The notes under the pieces are model-generated. The model did not search any database, was not told the DNA's origin, and was given only the letters and a program-made list of their open reading frames with translations. A stretch of DNA of 36,938 nt from Anaerolineae bacterium (GTDB lineage Bacteria; Chloroflexota; Anaerolineae; J036; Brachytrichaceae), in contig JAHBAL020000139.1 in assembly GCA_018500105.2 (NCBI GenBank), positions 1 to 36,938 on the forward strand. The letters run 5' to 3'. Positions 13,689 to 36,150 of the stretch are shown one piece after another; within the stretch, counting starts at the first letter, position 1, and each line of letters opens with the position of its first letter. The position numbers and the translations under genes were made by a program.

Positions 13689-14999
13689 CTATTTATCTTC
13701 AAAACTTGAAATTTGAAACTCAAGCTCCAATTGCTGAGCATCCGGCTCAAAAAAATCCTTATTCTGTTTTTCCACATAAGACCATGACAGTTTTGATATT
13801 CCTCTTGAAGGGTCATAATTTTTTTTATAGTCTTCTACGACTTTCCTTGCAGGCAAGAATAATTTATCCAAATTATTTTCTATTTCCTCAATACTCCACC
13901 ATTGCCAATCCTCATTTTGATCAAATTCCTTCAGTTTTGGATTACCGTCATAGTCGCGCAACAAAAAACCTAGTGATAAAACTTTGGGTTTATCTTGAAA
14001 GTGTTGAATGTCACTAGAGATTGGAATAAAATATGACTTTTTATCATCATCGGTTGTTATTTTAGAGACTGTTAGCCCAGTTTCCTCTCTAAGTTCACGC
14101 AAAACACCATTTATTAAGTTCTCGCTGGGGTTAATCTTTCCGCCTGGAACCCCGTAAAGGTCTTTCCCGAATCCCATAATCCTTCTACTAAATAAAAAAC
14201 TTACCTTGCCATTTATTGCATTTTTTTGAAGAACGAGAATATGACAAACAACATACGGTTTTTTTCTTGTTGAATGTATTTTAAAAACAGGAGGATCCAA
14301 AAAAACGGGCTCAACTATCCAGAACAGATTATTATCTCTTTTTATACGATTTTTCTTTAAATCTACAAGCAGTGGAAGGCCGAAAAATGCGTGATACTTT
14401 ATCGGCAAACTAGATTTCCTCTTTGAGCTTTGAAATAAAAAAAAGGAAAGCTGTTCATCTCGATTTTCCGTCTTATCATCAATTGTTTGTTGAACTGTTA
14501 TGCTTGTTGCCGAATTGATACTTGATGTTGATAATGTAAAGTCTTTCGGCTCCCATATATTCAAATTTGGTGGAGAATCGTTTACATCACTTAATTCAGC
14601 ACGTTTTATATATGGCATATCTTGGTCTATCTCACCATCTTTGTAGGCCATCTCAACAAGAGCGTTCAAAACCAAGTTCTTTATATCAGTTGGATATTTT
14701 TGACGAACATGCCAAAGCGAAGGACGTGTTGGGAGATTAATCTTATTAGCCTTGGTTTCGTCTATATTAACAAAATCACAAAGCTCTTGAAGCTGCGGTT
14801 TCTCTGCCAGTTGTTTTGCAAGATCACGTTCACTTTGGATTTTAGTTAAAAAAGGTAACGTTAAAAGTTTAATAAGACTTATAAAGCTATATCCATTATA
14901 TCTATATGATGATAAGTTCTTGCCCCCTCCATTACCCATTTTACCTAACTCAGCCCAATTAACCCTAGAGTAAATCTCCTTTAACTGGTTGTAGTCCAT
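13689..14999 (-). CDS. Transposase-like (DUF772-type) N-terminal domain fused to a Nudix domain
   Basis: The protein is 436 aa, AT-rich and the last gene of the island. Residues about 35-125 ('FISLIKLLTLPFLTKIQSERDLAKQL', 'LQELCDFVNI', 'PTRPSLWHVRQKYP') resemble the N-terminal DNA-binding region (DUF772) of IS5/IS1182-type transposases, but no DDE catalytic domain follows. A polar linker (about 135-200) leads to a C-terminal Nudix domain with an intact box at about 287-309 (GKINPSE, then REL-REETGL). The catalytic glutamates are present. Such a fusion suggests a domesticated transposase domain giving DNA targeting or regulation to a nucleotide-sensing or hydrolysing module. It starts 12 bp after the preceding gene. 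The DUF772 assignment is by pattern only; the Nudix call is firm. Confidence 0.7.
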   Translation of the reverse strand: MDYNQLKEIYSRVNWAELGKMGNGGGKNLSSYRYNGYSFISLIKLLTLPFLTKIQSERDLAKQLAEKPQLQELCDFVNIDETKANKINLPTRPSLWHVRQKYPTDIKNLVLNALVEMAYKDGEIDQDMPYIKRAELSDVNDSPPNLNIWEPKDFTLSTSSINSATSITVQQTIDDKTENRDEQLSFFLFQSSKRKSSLPIKYHAFFGLPLLVDLKKNRIKRDNNLFWIVEPVFLDPPVFKIHSTRKKPYVVCHILVLQKNAINGKVSFLFSRRIMGFGKDLYGVPGGKINPSENLINGVLRELREETGLTVSKITTDDDKKSYFIPISSDIQHFQDKPKVLSLGFLLRDYDGNPKLKEFDQNEDWQWWSIEEIENNLDKLFLPARKVVEDYKKNYDPSRGISKLSWSYVEKQNKDFFEPDAQQLELEFQISSFEDK

Positions 15000-15011: not shown

Positions 15012-16193
15012 TTAACTATTTCGAAGTAATTTAATTAGTGAAGCTATTGTGGTTACAATAACTATTATAGTTTGAATTAATGTAGCCCAATTAGCATAAC
15101 GTGACAGCACAGGATCGGTCGGGTTTAACATCAAAAGCAATGGTGCCGGGACTAGTATTAAGACCAACAATAGAAAAAAAATCAGCCATTTTTTTGTAAA
15201 ACGGCCACCTAATGCTGTCAAAATCTTGCCTTCTTGCTCAAAATTTTTAGCATTTTGGGTTATATATTTTATTAAGTCAATATTCCAGTCCTTAAACAAG
15301 GTCGGGGTCGACTTCATAATTTTCTCGTTATTGCGGCCAGAGCACTTTTCAATTTCCGTTTGATCAAACCAGCGATATGTGTTTATATTAACAACTCTCC
15401 CATTTACATCTAACCGTTTTTCTTTAAGCAACTGTTTTAAATGCTCATTGATATCAACATTTAGAGAGTCAATAACTCGTAATGTATATTCATACCTTGT
15501 AAATGCTCCTGTTGTTTTCGATACCATATCTACTACTTTGACAGGAGGAATAATAGTAGGTTCAATTTTGTATAAATTTTTACTTAATCCCAATTGAGTC
15601 TTCATTGCATCTTCTATCTCTTCACTCACATTAATAGGAGGATAGGGTTTGTTACTTGCTCCAATCAAATGATACTCATCCCATTCCGGATGAAGAGCAA
15701 ATAAAAACACATCTACAACTTGGTAGTTTCTTATTTGCTTGCCCTTAATTAGAACATTTGTAATACTTCTATTGTGAATTGGATCTTTTTCTAAAATTGA
15801 TGAACTATGCTCTCGTAGTTCTTCTAAAATTTTGGTGAATCCTATTGAGAAATTTCTTTCTGCGTCCGTTGAAAATCTAATCTTCAAACCCGATGTGTTT
15901 TTAAAAAATTTTGTCAAACTACCGATCACAAAGTAACTACTTCTTGATGTTACGCGAATAACATCTTCATTCTCGATTCTAAAAATTCCTAATCTCGCAA
16001 AAAAAAAGATAAAAGATTGAATTTGTAACCACTCGCCTAATTTATCAGCTTTAAATTGTGATTTAAAATCATGTAGGCTAATATTGGGCAACTCCGAGTT
16101 GAGCTTAACATGTTCCTCATTTTTTTGCAAGAGGTGCGTTAGAAGATTAGAGATATTTTCGATAAAAACATCATTTTGGCTTCGATTAAACAT
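15012..16193 (-). CDS. Unknown protein: degenerate Nudix-like core with two C-terminal membrane helices
   Basis: The protein is 393 aa and I do not recognise a named family. The N-terminal 110 residues are helical with a possible winged-helix part ('ENEDVIRVTSRSSYFVIGSL'). The middle (about 150-285) has strands in a Nudix-like order: 'VVDVFLFALHPEWDEYHLIG', then 'EEIEDAMKTQLGL' where an active Nudix would have REELGL-type glutamates, then 'FTRYEYTLRVIDSL' and 'NTYRWFDQTEIEK'. It therefore looks like a non-catalytic, ligand-sensing Nudix fold. Two hydrophobic helices at about 336-356 and 368-390 end the protein, separated by a short loop, as in 2TM effectors of nucleotide-dependent defence systems. 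Function is inferred only. Confidence 0.6.
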   Translation of the reverse strand: MFNRSQNDVFIENISNLLTHLLQKNEEHVKLNSELPNISLHDFKSQFKADKLGEWLQIQSFIFFFARLGIFRIENEDVIRVTSRSSYFVIGSLTKFFKNTSGLKIRFSTDAERNFSIGFTKILEELREHSSSILEKDPIHNRSITNVLIKGKQIRNYQVVDVFLFALHPEWDEYHLIGASNKPYPPINVSEEIEDAMKTQLGLSKNLYKIEPTIIPPVKVVDMVSKTTGAFTRYEYTLRVIDSLNVDINEHLKQLLKEKRLDVNGRVVNINTYRWFDQTEIEKCSGRNNEKIMKSTPTLFKDWNIDLIKYITQNAKNFEQEGKILTALGGRFTKKWLIFFLLLVLILVPAPLLLMLNPTDPVLSRYANWATLIQTIIVIVTTIASLIKLLRNS

Positions 16194-16252: not shown

Positions 16253-17467
16253 TTATAATTTTGGGGACAATAATTGCTTAGTTGCTTCCCATGTAATCTC
16301 TTGCACCTCATCTATGGGATGATTCGCGTCTATCTTTGTTGATTTTATGAAATAAAAATTATTGTCAAATATATCCAGATATGCCTCTCTCAATTTTGTT
16401 ATTTTATCCAGCGTTTCGTATATTCCTGTTTTTCTGCCTCGTGTTTCTATTCTAGAAATTGCATTTTCAGGTGTTACATCATAGAGTAATACTAGATTAG
16501 GAATAGGAATAAATTGATGTTGAAAAGCTACTTGTGCTCTTTCCCAATTATTTTTACATTGATATACTAAGGTGCTAATATAACTGCGGATAGAAATTAC
16601 AATCTTCCCATTGGCTAAAGCCGGTTTAACAACCTTACTAATTTGTTCGTATCGATCTGCCAAGAGCAGATGGCTCATAATAACAGGATCATCTAATTCT
16701 TTATCACTGTTATTCGCCGACGCCCAAGCATTTCGATAATTTTTATACATTTCCGTTGGTTCAGATATGCAAACTACTGAGTACCCCTCCTTTTCAAGGC
16801 GTTTTTTTAACAATTGTGCTTGCGTATCCTTTCCAGAACCACTGACCCCTTCCAACACTATATATTTTCCATTGTGAGTAAATGCCTCAAAAGGTGGCTG
16901 ATATCTTAGATGCTCAAGAAACATTCTTGCCATTAATGTCTCATTTCGCGCAATTTGTTGACTTTCAACAAATAATAAGCTATTCAAACGTTTTGGCATA
17001 CGATTTTGTAAGCGATCCAAAATCTGCGAAACACCACCTCTAGTTTCACCTGCCCATAAGGCAATTCGCAATACCCCCCAAGCTCCAAAACCTGCTAAAA
17101 AATCTGCCTCTTTGAGAATTAAACCTTCAAGAGAGTTAGGTGATAAATCAGGCTGATCATGTTCCTGAATTGCCTGTATAACCCTACGTTTTTGTTCCAC
17201 TGTAAGGTTCACTGAATTTAAAATCTCCTCTGCTTGTCTTATGGAACTATTACGACTAGCTTCGCCATGTAAATTATCTGGATCACTCCGTCCTAGGTCA
17301 TGAAGTAACGTAGCTGCAATGATGACATCTAAGTCGCCTCCATGTCGCGAATGTAAAAAGTTGGCAAAGCTTAGTACACGATCTATGTGCCAATGATCAT
17401 GGCTCACACTTAAAAACTTACTTGCTATGGTTTTCCATAATTTTGCTTCTATTGAGTTATTAATCAT
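16253..17467 (-). CDS. HD-domain phosphohydrolase fused to a thymidylate kinase-like domain
   Basis: The protein is 404 aa. Residues 20-125 form an HD domain: 'SHDHWHIDRVL', 'ATLLHDLGRSDP' (H56-D57) and 'KEADFLAGFG'. Residues 200-404 form a thymidylate kinase-like domain: 'YIVLEGVSGSGKDTQAQLL' (P-loop 207-214), 'SEPTE', and 'LLADRYEQISKVVKPALANG'. The usual DRY after that block is replaced by 'SIRSY' (I293-R294), so substrate binding may differ from dTMP kinase. The HD half would hydrolyse a phosphoester and the kinase half would phosphorylate a (deoxy)nucleotide-like compound. Its first 8 bp overlap the upstream ParB-like gene, indicating translational coupling. Domain calls are strong; the joint role is unknown. 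Confidence 0.85.
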   Translation of the reverse strand: MINNSIEAKLWKTIASKFLSVSHDHWHIDRVLSFANFLHSRHGGDLDVIIAATLLHDLGRSDPDNLHGEASRNSSIRQAEEILNSVNLTVEQKRRVIQAIQEHDQPDLSPNSLEGLILKEADFLAGFGAWGVLRIALWAGETRGGVSQILDRLQNRMPKRLNSLLFVESQQIARNETLMARMFLEHLRYQPPFEAFTHNGKYIVLEGVSGSGKDTQAQLLKKRLEKEGYSVVCISEPTEMYKNYRNAWASANNSDKELDDPVIMSHLLLADRYEQISKVVKPALANGKIVISIRSYISTLVYQCKNNWERAQVAFQHQFIPIPNLVLLYDVTPENAISRIETRGRKTGIYETLDKITKLREAYLDIFDNNFYFIKSTKIDANHPIDEVQEITWEATKQLLSPKL

Positions 17468-18143
17468 GTTTATATTCCTTAAATGTTCGAGTGCCTTTTG
17501 AACCGAGACAAGACAAATCTCTATAAAAAAAATATTTTATATTTTCATCTTTGATGTTAAATTTAGCTGCTATATTCTCGGGCACATCATTTTTTGTGTT
17601 GTAACGATACATTCTCTTTTCCTCAGACGATAACTGTGCTCCTGTTGGGTAGTTTTTTACATCTTTCCATTCGCAAGCTATAGGGACAAGAGGCGTTTCA
17701 ACACCTTCGATAGCAATAACTTTCACTTTTTGAATTCCTAAGTTTTGTGCAACACAACAACGATGTAACCCATCAACTAAGCCCACTTTCCATCCATTCC
17801 GGCCTACATTAAGGTGTGCATTTTCGTAAAACATCTCCACCACGGGCGGTGCTATTTTCTGAATATTGTCCGTTTCATATTGAAACTCAACAATGCCAGA
17901 TAAATTAAAGAGATCTAATCCAGCTTTTAGAAAAGATTTATATAACTCTTGTGTTTCTAAAATTCTATTTTGCAATGTGTATAACGCAAGAGGGGTTAAA
18001 TCTTCAGGGTTATAAAATGCTTCTGTGATTGAACAACCAGCATATGGATAGTGATTTGTGTCACCTTTAAGCTGCACTTTTCGCAATTGGGTCGCCATAG
18101 TTTCCCAATCAATAATATTTAGGATATTAAGCTCATTAGACAT
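17460..18143 (-). CDS. ParB/DGQHR-like domain protein
   Basis: The protein is 227 aa. The block 'KVGLVDGLHRCCVAQNLGIQKVKVIAI' (about 119-145) matches the DGxHR motif and following helix-strand of ParB N-terminal/sulfiredoxin-fold and DGQHR-domain proteins, which bind or hydrolyse nucleotides and include the phosphorothioation regulator DndB. No helix-turn-helix partner domain of a chromosome-partition ParB is visible. The C-terminal part is Lys/Tyr-rich. It is the first gene of the four-gene run and overlaps the HD-kinase gene by 8 bp. I infer a DNA- or nucleotide-related enzyme rather than a segregation protein. Confidence 0.65.
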   Translation of the reverse strand: MSNELNILNIIDWETMATQLRKVQLKGDTNHYPYAGCSITEAFYNPEDLTPLALYTLQNRILETQELYKSFLKAGLDLFNLSGIVEFQYETDNIQKIAPPVVEMFYENAHLNVGRNGWKVGLVDGLHRCCVAQNLGIQKVKVIAIEGVETPLVPIACEWKDVKNYPTGAQLSSEEKRMYRYNTKNDVPENIAAKFNIKDENIKYFFYRDLSCLGSKGTRTFKEYKHD

Positions 18144-18289: not shown

Positions 18290-19309
18290 TTAGCTGGGCG
18301 CTTTATTGCGCCTGATGCGTTTTAAATTTTTTGTTCTAGTATTGTTTAATGTTCTCACAAAAGGAATACGTGTTGGACCATCTCCTAAAGAAGGAATATC
18401 CGTTAAAGGGCCAACAACGCTCATTCCTACATGGGGTAAATTTGGCTTATAACCATGGTTATAAGATAGTATCCGATTACTAAAGAACAACTCACGCCCA
18501 ATAAAACTGTTTCCTCCAATTGGGTTAGCTGAATAAGTTTGATCAATGACACACCCATATATACCTGTCAAACCATCATAAAGTTCACGGACTTCCGGGG
18601 CATCATCATAAGATAACATCCATGGTAATGAAAGTTTAATTACATAATCACGCAACTCACAATGCATCCTCTTGTTAAAAACGTATTCATATAATTTAGG
18701 AGCGCGGTGATAATATGGGGGGTCCATATACAAATAGGCAAACTTTGTGTTCTCATATAAACTACAAAACGCTCTCCAATCCATATTTTCCACACAATCA
18801 ACCTGATCCCGATAATCATACAGTTTTTTCAGTTTCTGAATAATCTTTTCGCGGTTGAATCGAACACTAATCAATCTATTTTCTTGCTTCCATCCGCCGA
18901 TTGGCCCAGATTTATGCAAAATGCCATTAAAACTTGTGCGATTAATAAAGAGGCACTTCCAAGCTAATTCACGAACATTCTGAGGCTTATAGTTTCTTTG
19001 GCGAACCCATTCCTCAACTGAAATATCACTCGACTCAACTTGATCTATCAGCCATTGAATATCATTATGTGATTTACAACTTTTGCCAAACACTACTTTC
19101 CAAAAACTGGCAACTAAAGGGTCAATATCGTTCAGCGCAATTCGTTTTATTTTCTTTGACTCTAAAAGCGCAATTGCAGCACCAGCACCACCACAAAATG
19201 GCTCAACAAATACATCAGCAACTTCACCTGAAGTTTTTATTGAGTCAAAAATAAAGTGAGTGAATCGTGCTTTTCCGCCAGGATAACGTAATGGAGATGT
19301 TGAAATCAT
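18290..19309 (-). CDS. DNA adenine methyltransferase, D12/Dam class
   Basis: The protein is 339 aa. 'PLRYPGGKARF' (residues 6-16) is the Dam motif X, 'VEPFCGGAGAAIALL' is the SAM-binding motif I, 'ALNDIDP' is motif II, 'INRTSFNGI' is a conserved D12 block, and 'YMDPPYYH' (196-199) is the catalytic DPPY. It should make N6-methyladenine. It is longer than Dam (about 270 aa) and ends in a basic tail. The recognition site is unknown. No restriction endonuclease gene adjoins it. The next genes downstream in the same direction are the ParB-like and HD-kinase genes, 146 bp away. It is AT-rich like the rest of the island. Confidence 0.9.
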   Translation of the reverse strand: MISTSPLRYPGGKARFTHFIFDSIKTSGEVADVFVEPFCGGAGAAIALLESKKIKRIALNDIDPLVASFWKVVFGKSCKSHNDIQWLIDQVESSDISVEEWVRQRNYKPQNVRELAWKCLFINRTSFNGILHKSGPIGGWKQENRLISVRFNREKIIQKLKKLYDYRDQVDCVENMDWRAFCSLYENTKFAYLYMDPPYYHRAPKLYEYVFNKRMHCELRDYVIKLSLPWMLSYDDAPEVRELYDGLTGIYGCVIDQTYSANPIGGNSFIGRELFFSNRILSYNHGYKPNLPHVGMSVVGPLTDIPSLGDGPTRIPFVRTLNNTRTKNLKRIRRNKAPS

Positions 19310-19426: not shown

Positions 19427-19672
19427 TCAGATTTTCCGATCATATTCGTCATGCTTGCCGACCCAATACCAAAAAACGGTGTCGTCTTCAATAAATCCGA
19501 GCGCTCGATAATTTCTGTCCACACGAGCGGATACATCACTGCCCACCCGTTTAAACCGCCGCGCATTGGGGTTTTCCTTCCACTCGCGATAAGCATAGCG
19601 AATTCTGGCGCGAATTTCAGGCGACAACGCCCGAAAAGCTTCGATAAAACCCGGCAGCAATTTTGATTTCAT
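19427..19672 (-). CDS. RelE/ParE-family toxin
   Basis: The protein is 81 aa. 'PEIRARIRYAYREWKENPNARRFKRVG', then 'SARVDRNYRALGF' and 'TVFWYWVGKHDEYDR' are the strand order and conserved Arg/Tyr/His pattern of the RelE/ParE superfamily (mRNA interferase or gyrase poison). The start overlaps the antitoxin stop by 4 bp (ATGA). The track's overlapping ORF 19381-19596 is a shadow frame. Confidence 0.88.
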   Translation of the reverse strand: MKSKLLPGFIEAFRALSPEIRARIRYAYREWKENPNARRFKRVGSDVSARVDRNYRALGFIEDDTVFWYWVGKHDEYDRKI

Positions 19673-19998
19673 TTCAACACAAACTCGCCATTTTCATCAT
19701 ACGCCGGAATTGCTTTACCAGCCTTGGCGTCAACCCTAGCCTTGGCTTTTAGCTCAGCAAATTTATCTGCATGACGCGCCATAGAAGCCGCCCACAATTC
19801 ATCTTCTTGCGCCAACTCAGCATCGCTAATAAAGTTAATATCGTCCTCTATCTCTACCGATGGTGTCACAAAATCATCAGCGGATAAAAAACGAGCAAAC
19901 GCATATAGTTGCGCTGCTTTCTCAACCGGAAGGGTTTTGACCAATGCAGCAATTAATTGTGAGTAATTCGCTACAGGGCTTGTTAATTGAGTTTGCAT
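19669..19998 (-). CDS. Antitoxin of the RelE/ParE pair
   Basis: The protein is 109 aa. The N-terminal half is a helical dimerisation-type region ('QLIAALVKTLPVEKAAQLYAFARFL'). The C-terminal half is acidic and Lys/Ala-rich ('DAELAQEDELWAASMARHADKF', 'AIPAYDENGEFVLK'), as expected for a toxin-binding tail. It lies directly upstream of the toxin with a 4-bp overlap, so it belongs to the same operon. The exact antitoxin class is not clear from motifs. A TAGAAT box lies 8 bp upstream of the ATG. Confidence 0.8.
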   Translation of the reverse strand: MQTQLTSPVANYSQLIAALVKTLPVEKAAQLYAFARFLSADDFVTPSVEIEDDINFISDAELAQEDELWAASMARHADKFAELKAKARVDAKAGKAIPAYDENGEFVLK

Positions 19999-32938: not shown

Positions 32939-35014
32939 GTGCGAATCGAAAATTTATTTCAATATTCATACTGGTTCAATACGCCAACCTCCGACCTTTC
33001 GCCGCTGGTGAATGGGTTATTGGTGGCGCTGGCTGGGCTGTGGTGCATCGTTCACGTGGTTTGGGGTCGCCCAGCTTGGCGGCGCTGGGCCAATATTTTG
33101 GCGGGCTTATTGTTCGGCAGCTCGGTCTTTGCCCGCGTGGCTGGCATCCCCATTTTAGAATTGCGCGGCTGGTGGCTGCTGGCGGCCTTCATCATTGTGC
33201 TGAGCTACACATCACAATGGTTGGGTGTGTTACTCAAGCTCTTTTTCGTCTACCTCCTCAATCCACTGGCAAAACGGCTCACGCACCCCATTGCGACACA
33301 AGCGATAGCAACTGCGTTACTGGCCTTCAGCTTTGGCTGGGCCGTCTGGGTAGCGTGGGTGCTGCGCACACATGGCGTCACCGGCAGCGACCCTTACGCC
33401 TATGCGCAAATGGGCGTTGATTTGGCGACCAACGGCACGGTTTATCACGCTTTTCCCTTGGTTCGCATCACACATGATCTGAGCATTGACGCGCCGATGG
33501 TCAATTCATACCCGATCACCCACATCGGCTACCGTTTGCCCGAAGATGCACGGCGGATTTCGACCACTGTTTGGCCGCCGGGCTACGCGGTTTTCACTGG
33601 GTTGGCCTATTTGTTGTTTGGCGAAGTGGGTTTGTATTGGGTCACGCCGTTTGTGGGATGGCTGTCGCTTATCGTCGTTGGCTTGCTGACCTATTTGTTA
33701 GTGGGCATTTTCAAAAGCGGACGCTGGACGTTGGCCTTGCGCGAGCCGGAAATTGGGCAGTTGAGCGACCCGATGCCACATCACGAATGGAATATGCCCG
33801 ACCCGACGCAGTTGCTGGCCGCCGCCATCGCGATTTTCATCACCGCCACCTCATATCAGCAAGTGGAATGGCAAATGACGCCGATGGCGGACCTCGCCGC
33901 CCAATTAACCTCGCTTTTGGCGTTGTTGCTGGCGTTTAATGCCGAACGCGCCTCGCATGTCGAGCAAAAACAAGCGGAACAACTGGCGAATCAACGGGTG
34001 CGCAATCGCACGCCTGCCCCGCCACTGTATCGCCTCAAATCACTGCGTTTGGCGGTGTTGAGTGGGCTTTTGCTCGGCGCCGCCTTCACCATTCGTTACA
34101 CCCAAGTGCTAATTGCGCCGGCGCTGGCTATTGCGTTGTGGCAATGGCACAAACCCGTTTTGTCCATTCGGCGGGTGTTGCTGTGCGCCTTCAGTGCCTT
34201 TATTGCCATTATTCCGCTGCTCATTTACCACACCAATGCCTTTGGCTTGCCTTGGGTCACCGGCTCAGATGAATTAAGCAACTTTTCACTCAGCCGTTTC
34301 CCCGAAACGGTCGAGCGCTTTTTCGACGAGATGAACTCGCACCGCGAATTTGGCTATTTATGGCTGCTCATGCTGATCGGCAGCATTGTGCTGGCATGGC
34401 GCAATGTGCGGCATTTCTTGGCGGTTGCGTTTTATGTGTTGCCGCTGCTCATTTTTCACCTTTTCTATGATTATTTGCGCCCGCGTGATTTGTTGTCTAT
34501 CTTCCCGATGGGGGCAACCTTGGTCGCATTGGGTTTTGCCACACTATATTCGTTGCGCTGGCGCGTATTGCGTTTGGCGGCGGTCATTTTGGTGGCGGCA
34601 CTGCTGCTCGGGCGTTCTAGCCAAACCTTGGTGTTGCCTGTCACCCGTGCTTTCGGCGCATTTGGCCATTTGGTGGCCGAGCAACGCGCCTCATTCGAGC
34701 ATATCCGCCTCAACACCCCTGCCAACGCCGTCATCGGCTGCTCGCTCAACAGCGGCGCAGTAGATTTGCATTCGCAGCGCCAAACTTTCCGCCCTGCAAC
34801 CTGGAAAGCCACCGAATTGGTGCGGTTTATCCACGCAGTCAAAGCCGAAGGCAAACCCGCTTATCTGCTGTTCGACGGCGATGAGTTGCGCGGCACAATT
34901 GATACGCTACAATTTAATTTCCGTATGACCGAGATCGGGCGCTTCGACATGCCCTATTATTTTCATGGCGGTGGGTCAGAAAACCGAAAAGTGCCGCTTT
35001 ATCGGTTGGATTGA
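32939..35014 (+). CDS. Multi-pass membrane glycosyltransferase-like protein (PMT/ArnT-like)
   Basis: The protein is 691 aa. GTG start at 32939, 6 bp after the helicase stop. About 12 or more hydrophobic segments. An N-terminal group of four helices is followed by a large loop with 'RTHGVTGSDPYAYAQMGVDLATNGT', where the acidic residue could be the catalytic one of the GT-C fold, and 'TTVWPPGYAVFTGLAYLLFGEVGLYWV'. A soluble domain (about 590-690) ends the protein. GT-C enzymes move sugars from polyprenyl-phosphate carriers to proteins or lipids. I do not recognise a specific member; the helix pattern and the 'PPGYxxf' block support the class. Acceptor unknown. Confidence 0.7.
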   Translation: MRIENLFQYSYWFNTPTSDLSPLVNGLLVALAGLWCIVHVVWGRPAWRRWANILAGLLFGSSVFARVAGIPILELRGWWLLAAFIIVLSYTSQWLGVLLKLFFVYLLNPLAKRLTHPIATQAIATALLAFSFGWAVWVAWVLRTHGVTGSDPYAYAQMGVDLATNGTVYHAFPLVRITHDLSIDAPMVNSYPITHIGYRLPEDARRISTTVWPPGYAVFTGLAYLLFGEVGLYWVTPFVGWLSLIVVGLLTYLLVGIFKSGRWTLALREPEIGQLSDPMPHHEWNMPDPTQLLAAAIAIFITATSYQQVEWQMTPMADLAAQLTSLLALLLAFNAERASHVEQKQAEQLANQRVRNRTPAPPLYRLKSLRLAVLSGLLLGAAFTIRYTQVLIAPALAIALWQWHKPVLSIRRVLLCAFSAFIAIIPLLIYHTNAFGLPWVTGSDELSNFSLSRFPETVERFFDEMNSHREFGYLWLLMLIGSIVLAWRNVRHFLAVAFYVLPLLIFHLFYDYLRPRDLLSIFPMGATLVALGFATLYSLRWRVLRLAAVILVAALLLGRSSQTLVLPVTRAFGAFGHLVAEQRASFEHIRLNTPANAVIGCSLNSGAVDLHSQRQTFRPATWKATELVRFIHAVKAEGKPAYLLFDGDELRGTIDTLQFNFRMTEIGRFDMPYYFHGGGSENRKVPLYRLD

Positions 35015-35037
35015 CGGCAATATCTGTAAATTGTCAT

Positions 35038-35385
35038 TTACAACGCCCACGAAAGCAATATCACATTGAGAATACACCCCATCACATTCACTACCACCGC
35101 AGCGGACAAGCTTTTAATATCGTAGATTGCTTCTCTTCGTTTTACTAATTTAACACATAAAAAAATAAGAAACGCGGTAATAAGCAACCCAATCAGCAAC
35201 GAAATTGCGAGTGCTTGCACTGAGGTTAACCCCAACGCCGCATATCTCGATGGGGTTGTAGCAAACAAGAAAAAAATACTACTATAGATGAAAGACAAAA
35301 AAATGAAGTAATCTTTCCTCTGTTTTTTGACTGAAACAACAAGACACAGAAGAAAGAAAACAAGTAAAACACTAATGAATAACAT
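35038..35385 (-). CDS. Small multi-pass membrane protein, unknown
   Basis: The protein is 115 aa with about four hydrophobic segments ('LLVFFLLCLVVSV', 'FLSFIYSSIFFLFA', 'ALAISLLIGLLITAFLIFLCV', 'AVVVNVMGCILNVILL'). Lower GC than the neighbours. No family recognised. The overlapping track ORF 35226-35477 is a shadow. It may be co-transcribed with the secreted-protein gene upstream on the minus strand (105 bp away). Confidence 0.6.
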   Translation of the reverse strand: MLFISVLLVFFLLCLVVSVKKQRKDYFIFLSFIYSSIFFLFATTPSRYAALGLTSVQALAISLLIGLLITAFLIFLCVKLVKRREAIYDIKSLSAAVVVNVMGCILNVILLSWAL

Positions 35386-35490
35386 GTCTTGCTTTTCAGC
35401 CGAAGAAGAGAAAGATTAATGATCTCTCTTCTTTGGAGTGACGCTTTAAACTTTGAATCTATTAGAAAGCAAGTCAAAATATGTTAATTT

Positions 35491-36150
35491 TCACTTACTT
35501 TTTTCTCTTATTTTTGCTTCTAAATCGCCAAGTGTTTTAGGTCTGCTCGCAGATTGATTCTCGCTAAATGAATTGACGTTATTTCCGCTAATTTTATATC
35601 TACCGGCTGGATTTACTATTCGGTAGAGTGTTCTGCCATTTGCATGAATATTGTCATGCGAAATATCCACCAAAAACAAAACGTATTCTTCGCCCGCTTT
35701 ATACAACGGGTCGTCACGTATCTCAAATTTTGCCGACCACATTTGTCTGCCGGTTTGCATCACAATTATTTTAGATTGTGCTTGACCTTGATAAACTTGA
35801 AGCACATCAAATGTCGTATCCGTAAAGGGTAATTCGTCAACATGTGTGCCGACAACCTTCGTCCCTTCCATCATTGGGAATTCATTTCTTAATATTCTGG
35901 TTTCTTTCGTGCTGGTTGCCCTAACTTTTACGACAAGCTGAGATTCAGATTTCAGCGCTTCAATTGTTGAGGCTTTGGATACCCATTCGGCAATTGATAC
36001 GACATCAGCACTTGGCAAATCGCCTAAAGCCCCTTCGGAGAGAGGATATTCTTTTGAAGAATCTACAACCGGTTGTGTTTTATAGACCTGCCCGCCAACG
36101 ACCATCATTAAAGCAACAATTATCGCCAGCACCTTCAAATTGATTGTCAT
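35491..36150 (-). CDS. Secreted protein of unknown function
   Basis: The protein is 219 aa. The N-terminus 'MTINLKVLAIIVALMMVVGGQVYKT' is a signal peptide or anchor. The rest has alternating strands ('LVVKVRATSTKE', 'FDVLQVYQGQAQSKIIVMQTG', 'AGEEYVLFLVDIS', 'LYRIVNPAGRYKI'), suggesting a compact beta-rich domain. I do not recognise a named family. A strong AAGGAGG Shine-Dalgarno precedes the ATG and two overlapping sigma-70-like promoters lie upstream, unlike most genes here. Composition is AT-rich. Confidence 0.65.
   Translation of the reverse strand: MTINLKVLAIIVALMMVVGGQVYKTQPVVDSSKEYPLSEGALGDLPSADVVSIAEWVSKASTIEALKSESQLVVKVRATSTKETRILRNEFPMMEGTKVVGTHVDELPFTDTTFDVLQVYQGQAQSKIIVMQTGRQMWSAKFEIRDDPLYKAGEEYVLFLVDISHDNIHANGRTLYRIVNPAGRYKISGNNVNSFSENQSASRPKTLGDLEAKIREKSK

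Follow-up and report, generated by a model that had tools for sequence, protein, structure and literature searches.

A protein of 436 amino acids, encoded on a contig of an Anaerolineae bacterium, combines an intact Nudix domain with a helical N-terminal part, or head, that resembles DUF772, the N-terminus of IS5/IS1182-type transposases, weakly yet better than by chance. The gene is the last of a closely spaced row of four, situated in a low-GC island of the window, by which we mean the whole stretch of 36,938 nucleotides analysed. The explanation tentatively preferred here is that of a mobile module for nucleotide handling, in which the Nudix enzyme has a head derived from a transposase.

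The fusion gene and its Nudix domain

The gene (13689..14999, minus strand), recognised as an ORF with Pfam matches to NUDIX and DUF772 and a Nudix box, starts with an ATG at 14999, stops at 13689 and runs through its 436 codons as a single uninterrupted frame. Two parts can be delimited: an N-terminal helical DUF772-like domain (residues 1-120; 14640..14999, minus strand), defined by Pfam, profile rankings and AlphaFold, and a Nudix domain (Pfam residues 265-390; 13830..14207, minus strand), defined by Pfam and motif. The stretch coding for the head has a normal coding composition, like that of the neighbouring genes (position GC 0.46/0.30/0.33), while the other two frames of the minus strand carry 10 and 21 stops across it. 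The fusion looks genuine.

The presence of a Nudix box with all its catalytic glutamates, claimed earlier from the sequence, has been confirmed: the pattern G-x5-E-x7-RE-U-xEE-x-G-U is matched exactly at residues 287-309 (GKINPSENLINGVLRELREETGL), and the Pfam NUDIX model scores 50.9 bits (E=2e-13) against a cut-off of 21.1. The best sequence matches are hydrolases of the MutT/MTH1 type and of the NMN-adenylyltransferase/Nudix type (PRK05379), which have the intact box and the surrounding domain in common with the fusion but not its DUF772-like head; in PRK05379 proteins an NMN adenylyltransferase domain takes that place. The best NCBIfam models for the domain are those of NMN/ADP-ribose-type Nudix enzymes, and the substrate is uncertain because the domain resembles these enzymes too.

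The head had also been described as transposase-type without a DDE nuclease after it. This agrees with the Pfam scan, in which a DDE nuclease model gave zero matches in the fusion protein at E<=1 and only the Nudix domain follows the head; at the same threshold no winged-helix model matched the C-terminus. Furthermore, no IS-like inverted repeats of at least 18 nt flank the gene within 13.5-20.2 kb.

Resemblance of the head to DUF772

The DUF772 domain (Pfam PF05598) of IS5/IS1182-type transposases has in common with the head a helical pattern and the core S-E-R-x-L ... L-P, over residues ~36-120; the fusion differs from these transposases in having a Nudix domain in place of the DDE nuclease, and the pairwise identity of the head to DUF772 domains is as low as 8-18%. 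In the protein scan, the Pfam model matched residues 36-103 with 20.4 bits (E=5.2e-4), below its cut-off of 23.1, while in a six-frame scan of the genome the same head reached 23.9 bits, above it. A profile built from 47 DUF772 domains gathered by genome searches gave residues 1-140 a score of 12.7 bits, the second highest in a set made up of this sequence and 5000 of its own shuffles, one of which reached 15.0 bits. When four DUF772 subgroup profiles were used, the head ranked first with three of them and dropped out with the one made of three sequences; one subgroup profile aligned residues 42-125 throughout. Among 3715 ORFs of the collected loci, the head came directly below the genuine DUF772 ORFs, which for the most part match the profile by construction, and above some 3,660 others. 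A phmmer search with the single N-terminal sequence returned nothing significant, although DUF772 ORFs top its list.

Structures were predicted as well. AlphaFold drew helices over residues 1-118 from the single full-length sequence, with a pLDDT of 33 that makes this model of the whole fusion protein unusable, whereas residues 1-140 together with 24 aligned DUF772 domains gave a pLDDT of 79 and a pTM of 0.71, in a model that leans on these presumed relatives. The helix positions are nearly identical in both. Foldseek searches of PDB and BFVD with the head model gave no match at E<=0.001, and the profile of the head alignment matched none of the solved chains, so that the comparison with transposase structures proposed by the sequence-only reading yields the alignment-based model and no structural match.

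The resemblance is thus real but weak, better than chance and not secure. The sequence-only reading, in which the first ~125 residues were held to be DUF772-like, is borne out with modest significance by the weak Pfam match and the shuffle and ORF controls, and the boundary it placed near residue 125 agrees with the extent of the helices, residues 1-120, in both structure predictions. The profile searches with their controls, together with the alignment-based model, support a distant homology between residues ~1-125 and the DUF772 part of IS transposases.

The low-GC island and the partner genes

The GC content is 33-38% from about 14 to 19 kb and reaches 41% at 19-20 kb, the contig elsewhere being mostly at 50-62%, and the low-GC stretch as a whole covers 13.7-19.7 kb; since one contig includes the sequence on either side, the stretch reads as a horizontally acquired island. 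It is bordered by a MoxR/DUF58 pair on one side and by an HbpS-like gene on the other. The listed genes are all on the minus strand and follow each other, in the direction of transcription, as a small gene, a ParE-like toxin, a D12 methyltransferase, a ParB-CE protein, an HD-thymidylate kinase, a 393-aa protein and the DUF772-Nudix fusion. The ParB-CE family protein, with a DGxHR motif (17460..18143; Pfam Parb-CE 6.8e-10 and alignment), overlaps by 8 bp with the gene for an HD phosphohydrolase-like and thymidylate-kinase-like fusion (16253..17467; Pfam Thymidylate_kin 4.1e-31, HD 3.1e-6). After 59 bp comes the 393-aa or two-TM protein (15012..16193), of no known family and with two hydrophobic segments near its C-terminus, whose gene is separated from the fusion gene by 12 bp. 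The spacing of these last four genes is as in an operon, a setting that the sequence-only reading did not mention. The D12-class DNA adenine methyltransferase (18290..19309; Pfam MethyltransfD12 5.3e-16, PADLOC PD-Lambda-5_B 9.3e-66) is separated from the row by 146 bp, and a functional link between them is uncertain; none of the PADLOC defence models takes in all four genes together. The ParE/RelE-like toxin gene and its small upstream partner gene stand at the island edge (19427-19998, minus strand). A second low-GC stretch (38%) is found at 35001-36000, close to the end of the window, together with an ORF of 219 aa (35491-36150, minus strand).

The kinase differs from the other thymidylate kinase of the genome (G000:C484) in its P-loop, EGVSGSGK instead of EGLDGSGK, and in the region of its DRY motif, ISIRSYIS instead of ICDRYYLS; these motif changes may reflect an altered substrate. 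A search of genome contigs with its P-loop pattern gave 54 loci, which were discarded as generic thymidylate-kinase matches devoid of the island partner genes. As regards the 393-aa protein, its hydrophobic windows start at about residues 337 and 372, no Pfam model matched it even at E<=10, no relatives appeared in plasmids, phages or viral contigs, and BLASTP found nothing in common between it and the fusion protein. A small Nudix profile, run with shuffles, gave no support to the idea that it holds a degenerate Nudix domain.

ParB-CE proteins (Pfam PF24392) belong to nucleotide-targeting immune systems reportedly described by Nicastro and colleagues in 2023. In such conflict systems the ParB-CE gene is placed in a row with nucleotide-handling enzymes, as in the island, but its combination with an HD-thymidylate kinase, a two-TM protein and a DUF772-Nudix gene was not seen in 20 other ParB-CE neighbourhoods, in which tblastn found relatives neither of the HD-kinase nor of the Nudix protein. 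ParB-CE relatives from the phylum of an Aurantimonas MAG (G401) lie near genes for a thymidylate-synthase-like/DUF4346 protein, a HAD hydrolase and a dCTP deaminase, all three being present at three of the seven loci and one of them at two more. In three loci of this phylum (L168, L173 and L174) a row of thymidylate-synthase-like/DUF4346, HAD hydrolase, ParB-CE and dCTP deaminase genes recurs, which hints that the ParB-CE family acts on nucleotides. At a further locus (L171, 1482-4496, minus strand), the ParB-CE domain shares a frame of 1005 aa with a calcineurin-like phosphoesterase.

Among plasmids, three of the six Nudix matches lie directly after a thymidylate-kinase-like gene (Streptomyces twice, Kitasatospora). 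The two Streptomyces plasmids (L002 and L003) carry a row of a hypothetical gene, a B12-binding radical SAM protein, a thymidylate kinase and a Nudix gene; as a counterpart of the island this cluster was rejected, as only the kinase-Nudix pairing is common to both. Taken with the neighbouring HD-thymidylate kinase and the genes found beside the ParB-CE relatives, the plasmid kinase-Nudix pairs point to a pyrimidine deoxynucleotide theme.

Possible role, rival explanations and distribution

According to the tentatively preferred explanation, the fusion protein would be a Nudix (nucleoside-diphosphate-X) hydrolase that looks active, and its first ~120 residues may descend from the helical N-terminus of a DUF772 (IS5/IS1182-type) transposase, minus the DDE nuclease. 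It would act as the final enzyme of a four-gene module gained by horizontal transfer (ParB-CE, HD-thymidylate kinase, two-TM protein and DUF772-Nudix), predicted to make, remodel or destroy a (deoxy)nucleotide, with a pyrimidine as the most likely candidate, and probably acting in conflict with phages or plasmids. The head would most likely bind DNA or assemble the protein, thereby placing or regulating the hydrolase. In favour of this explanation are the exact Nudix box, the ranking of the DUF772 match against shuffles and ORF decoys, the alignment-based model, the drop in GC, the close gene spacing and the pyrimidine theme; against it count the sub-cut-off Pfam score in the protein scan, the single genome found, the 20 ParB-CE neighbourhoods lacking the partner genes, the empty Foldseek searches, the likeness to NMN/ADP-ribose-type enzymes and the want of a PADLOC model for the four genes. 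If functional, the fusion would illustrate how the N-terminal domain of a transposase can be recruited to an enzyme of nucleotide handling, and the unusual gene combination of ParB-CE, HD-thymidylate kinase, two-TM protein and Nudix is a testable candidate conflict system. A bolder proposal, which we regard as distinctly improbable, is that of an undescribed four-gene immune module which would have recruited a transposase DNA-binding domain as the head of its hydrolase and would link contact with foreign DNA to a membrane effector and to the making or destroying of a thymidine-type nucleotide.

The likeness to DUF772 might instead have arisen by convergence between helical domains, the protein then being a Nudix enzyme of the ordinary kind with a helical extension specific to its lineage. 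The Pfam score under the cut-off in the protein scan, the identity of only 8-18%, the lack of significant phmmer matches with the single head sequence and the one shuffle scoring above the head would all fit, and yet the head outranks nearly all shuffles and some 3,660 other ORFs, is aligned throughout residues 42-125 by one subgroup profile and rises from 33 to 79 in AlphaFold confidence once DUF772 domains are aligned; convergence is held to be doubtful. A passive gene fusion from a decayed insertion sequence, leaving a transposase remnant without function, is very unlikely: although a second genome with the fusion was not found in the sets sampled, the supposed remnant is open, normal in coding composition and far diverged from the transposases compared, the gene starts 12 bp after its upstream neighbour, and its flanks are without IS-like inverted repeats.

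Somewhat less probable than convergence is a ligand-responsive regulator of the NrtR kind, in which the Nudix domain would sense the nucleotide of the neighbouring enzymes and the DUF772-like domain would bind the island's own promoter. NrtR-type regulators, like the fusion, join a Nudix domain and a putative DNA-binding domain in a single chain, the Nudix fold serving as sensor, and a helical, possibly DNA-binding head next to a nucleotide-binding domain, whose best NCBIfam models are of the NMN/ADP-ribose type, is consistent with such a function. In NrtR, however, the additional domain is a C-terminal winged helix, of a family different from DUF772, whereas that of the fusion is N-terminal; moreover, many regulator Nudix domains no longer have an intact catalytic box, while that of the fusion is complete, and the fusion gene stands last in the row.

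The distribution of the fusion was followed in ~900 genomes sampled from three phyla and in records of phages and plasmids. The head domain was found in the window's own genome only among 400 genomes of its phylum, and was not found in 297 and 203 genomes of two other phyla (those of L048 and L020, respectively) or in the plasmid and phage records. A tblastn match of the head in another locus (L167, E=0.033) falls inside an RND-pump-like ORF and was taken as chance. Scans of genome and viral contigs with full-protein patterns, which reach close relatives only, were empty. Since these are samples or shallow searches, their empty outcome is weak evidence. Among the papers searched, none treated DUF772 together with Nudix. 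With no second genome found in the sampled sets, the fusion could be a one-off. The earlier proposal of domestication stands in part: distant DUF772 homology, the missing DDE nuclease and the intact Nudix box favour it, the want of a second genome and of a significant Foldseek match does not, and domestication of a transposase part appears, from sequence, to be a reasonable inference.
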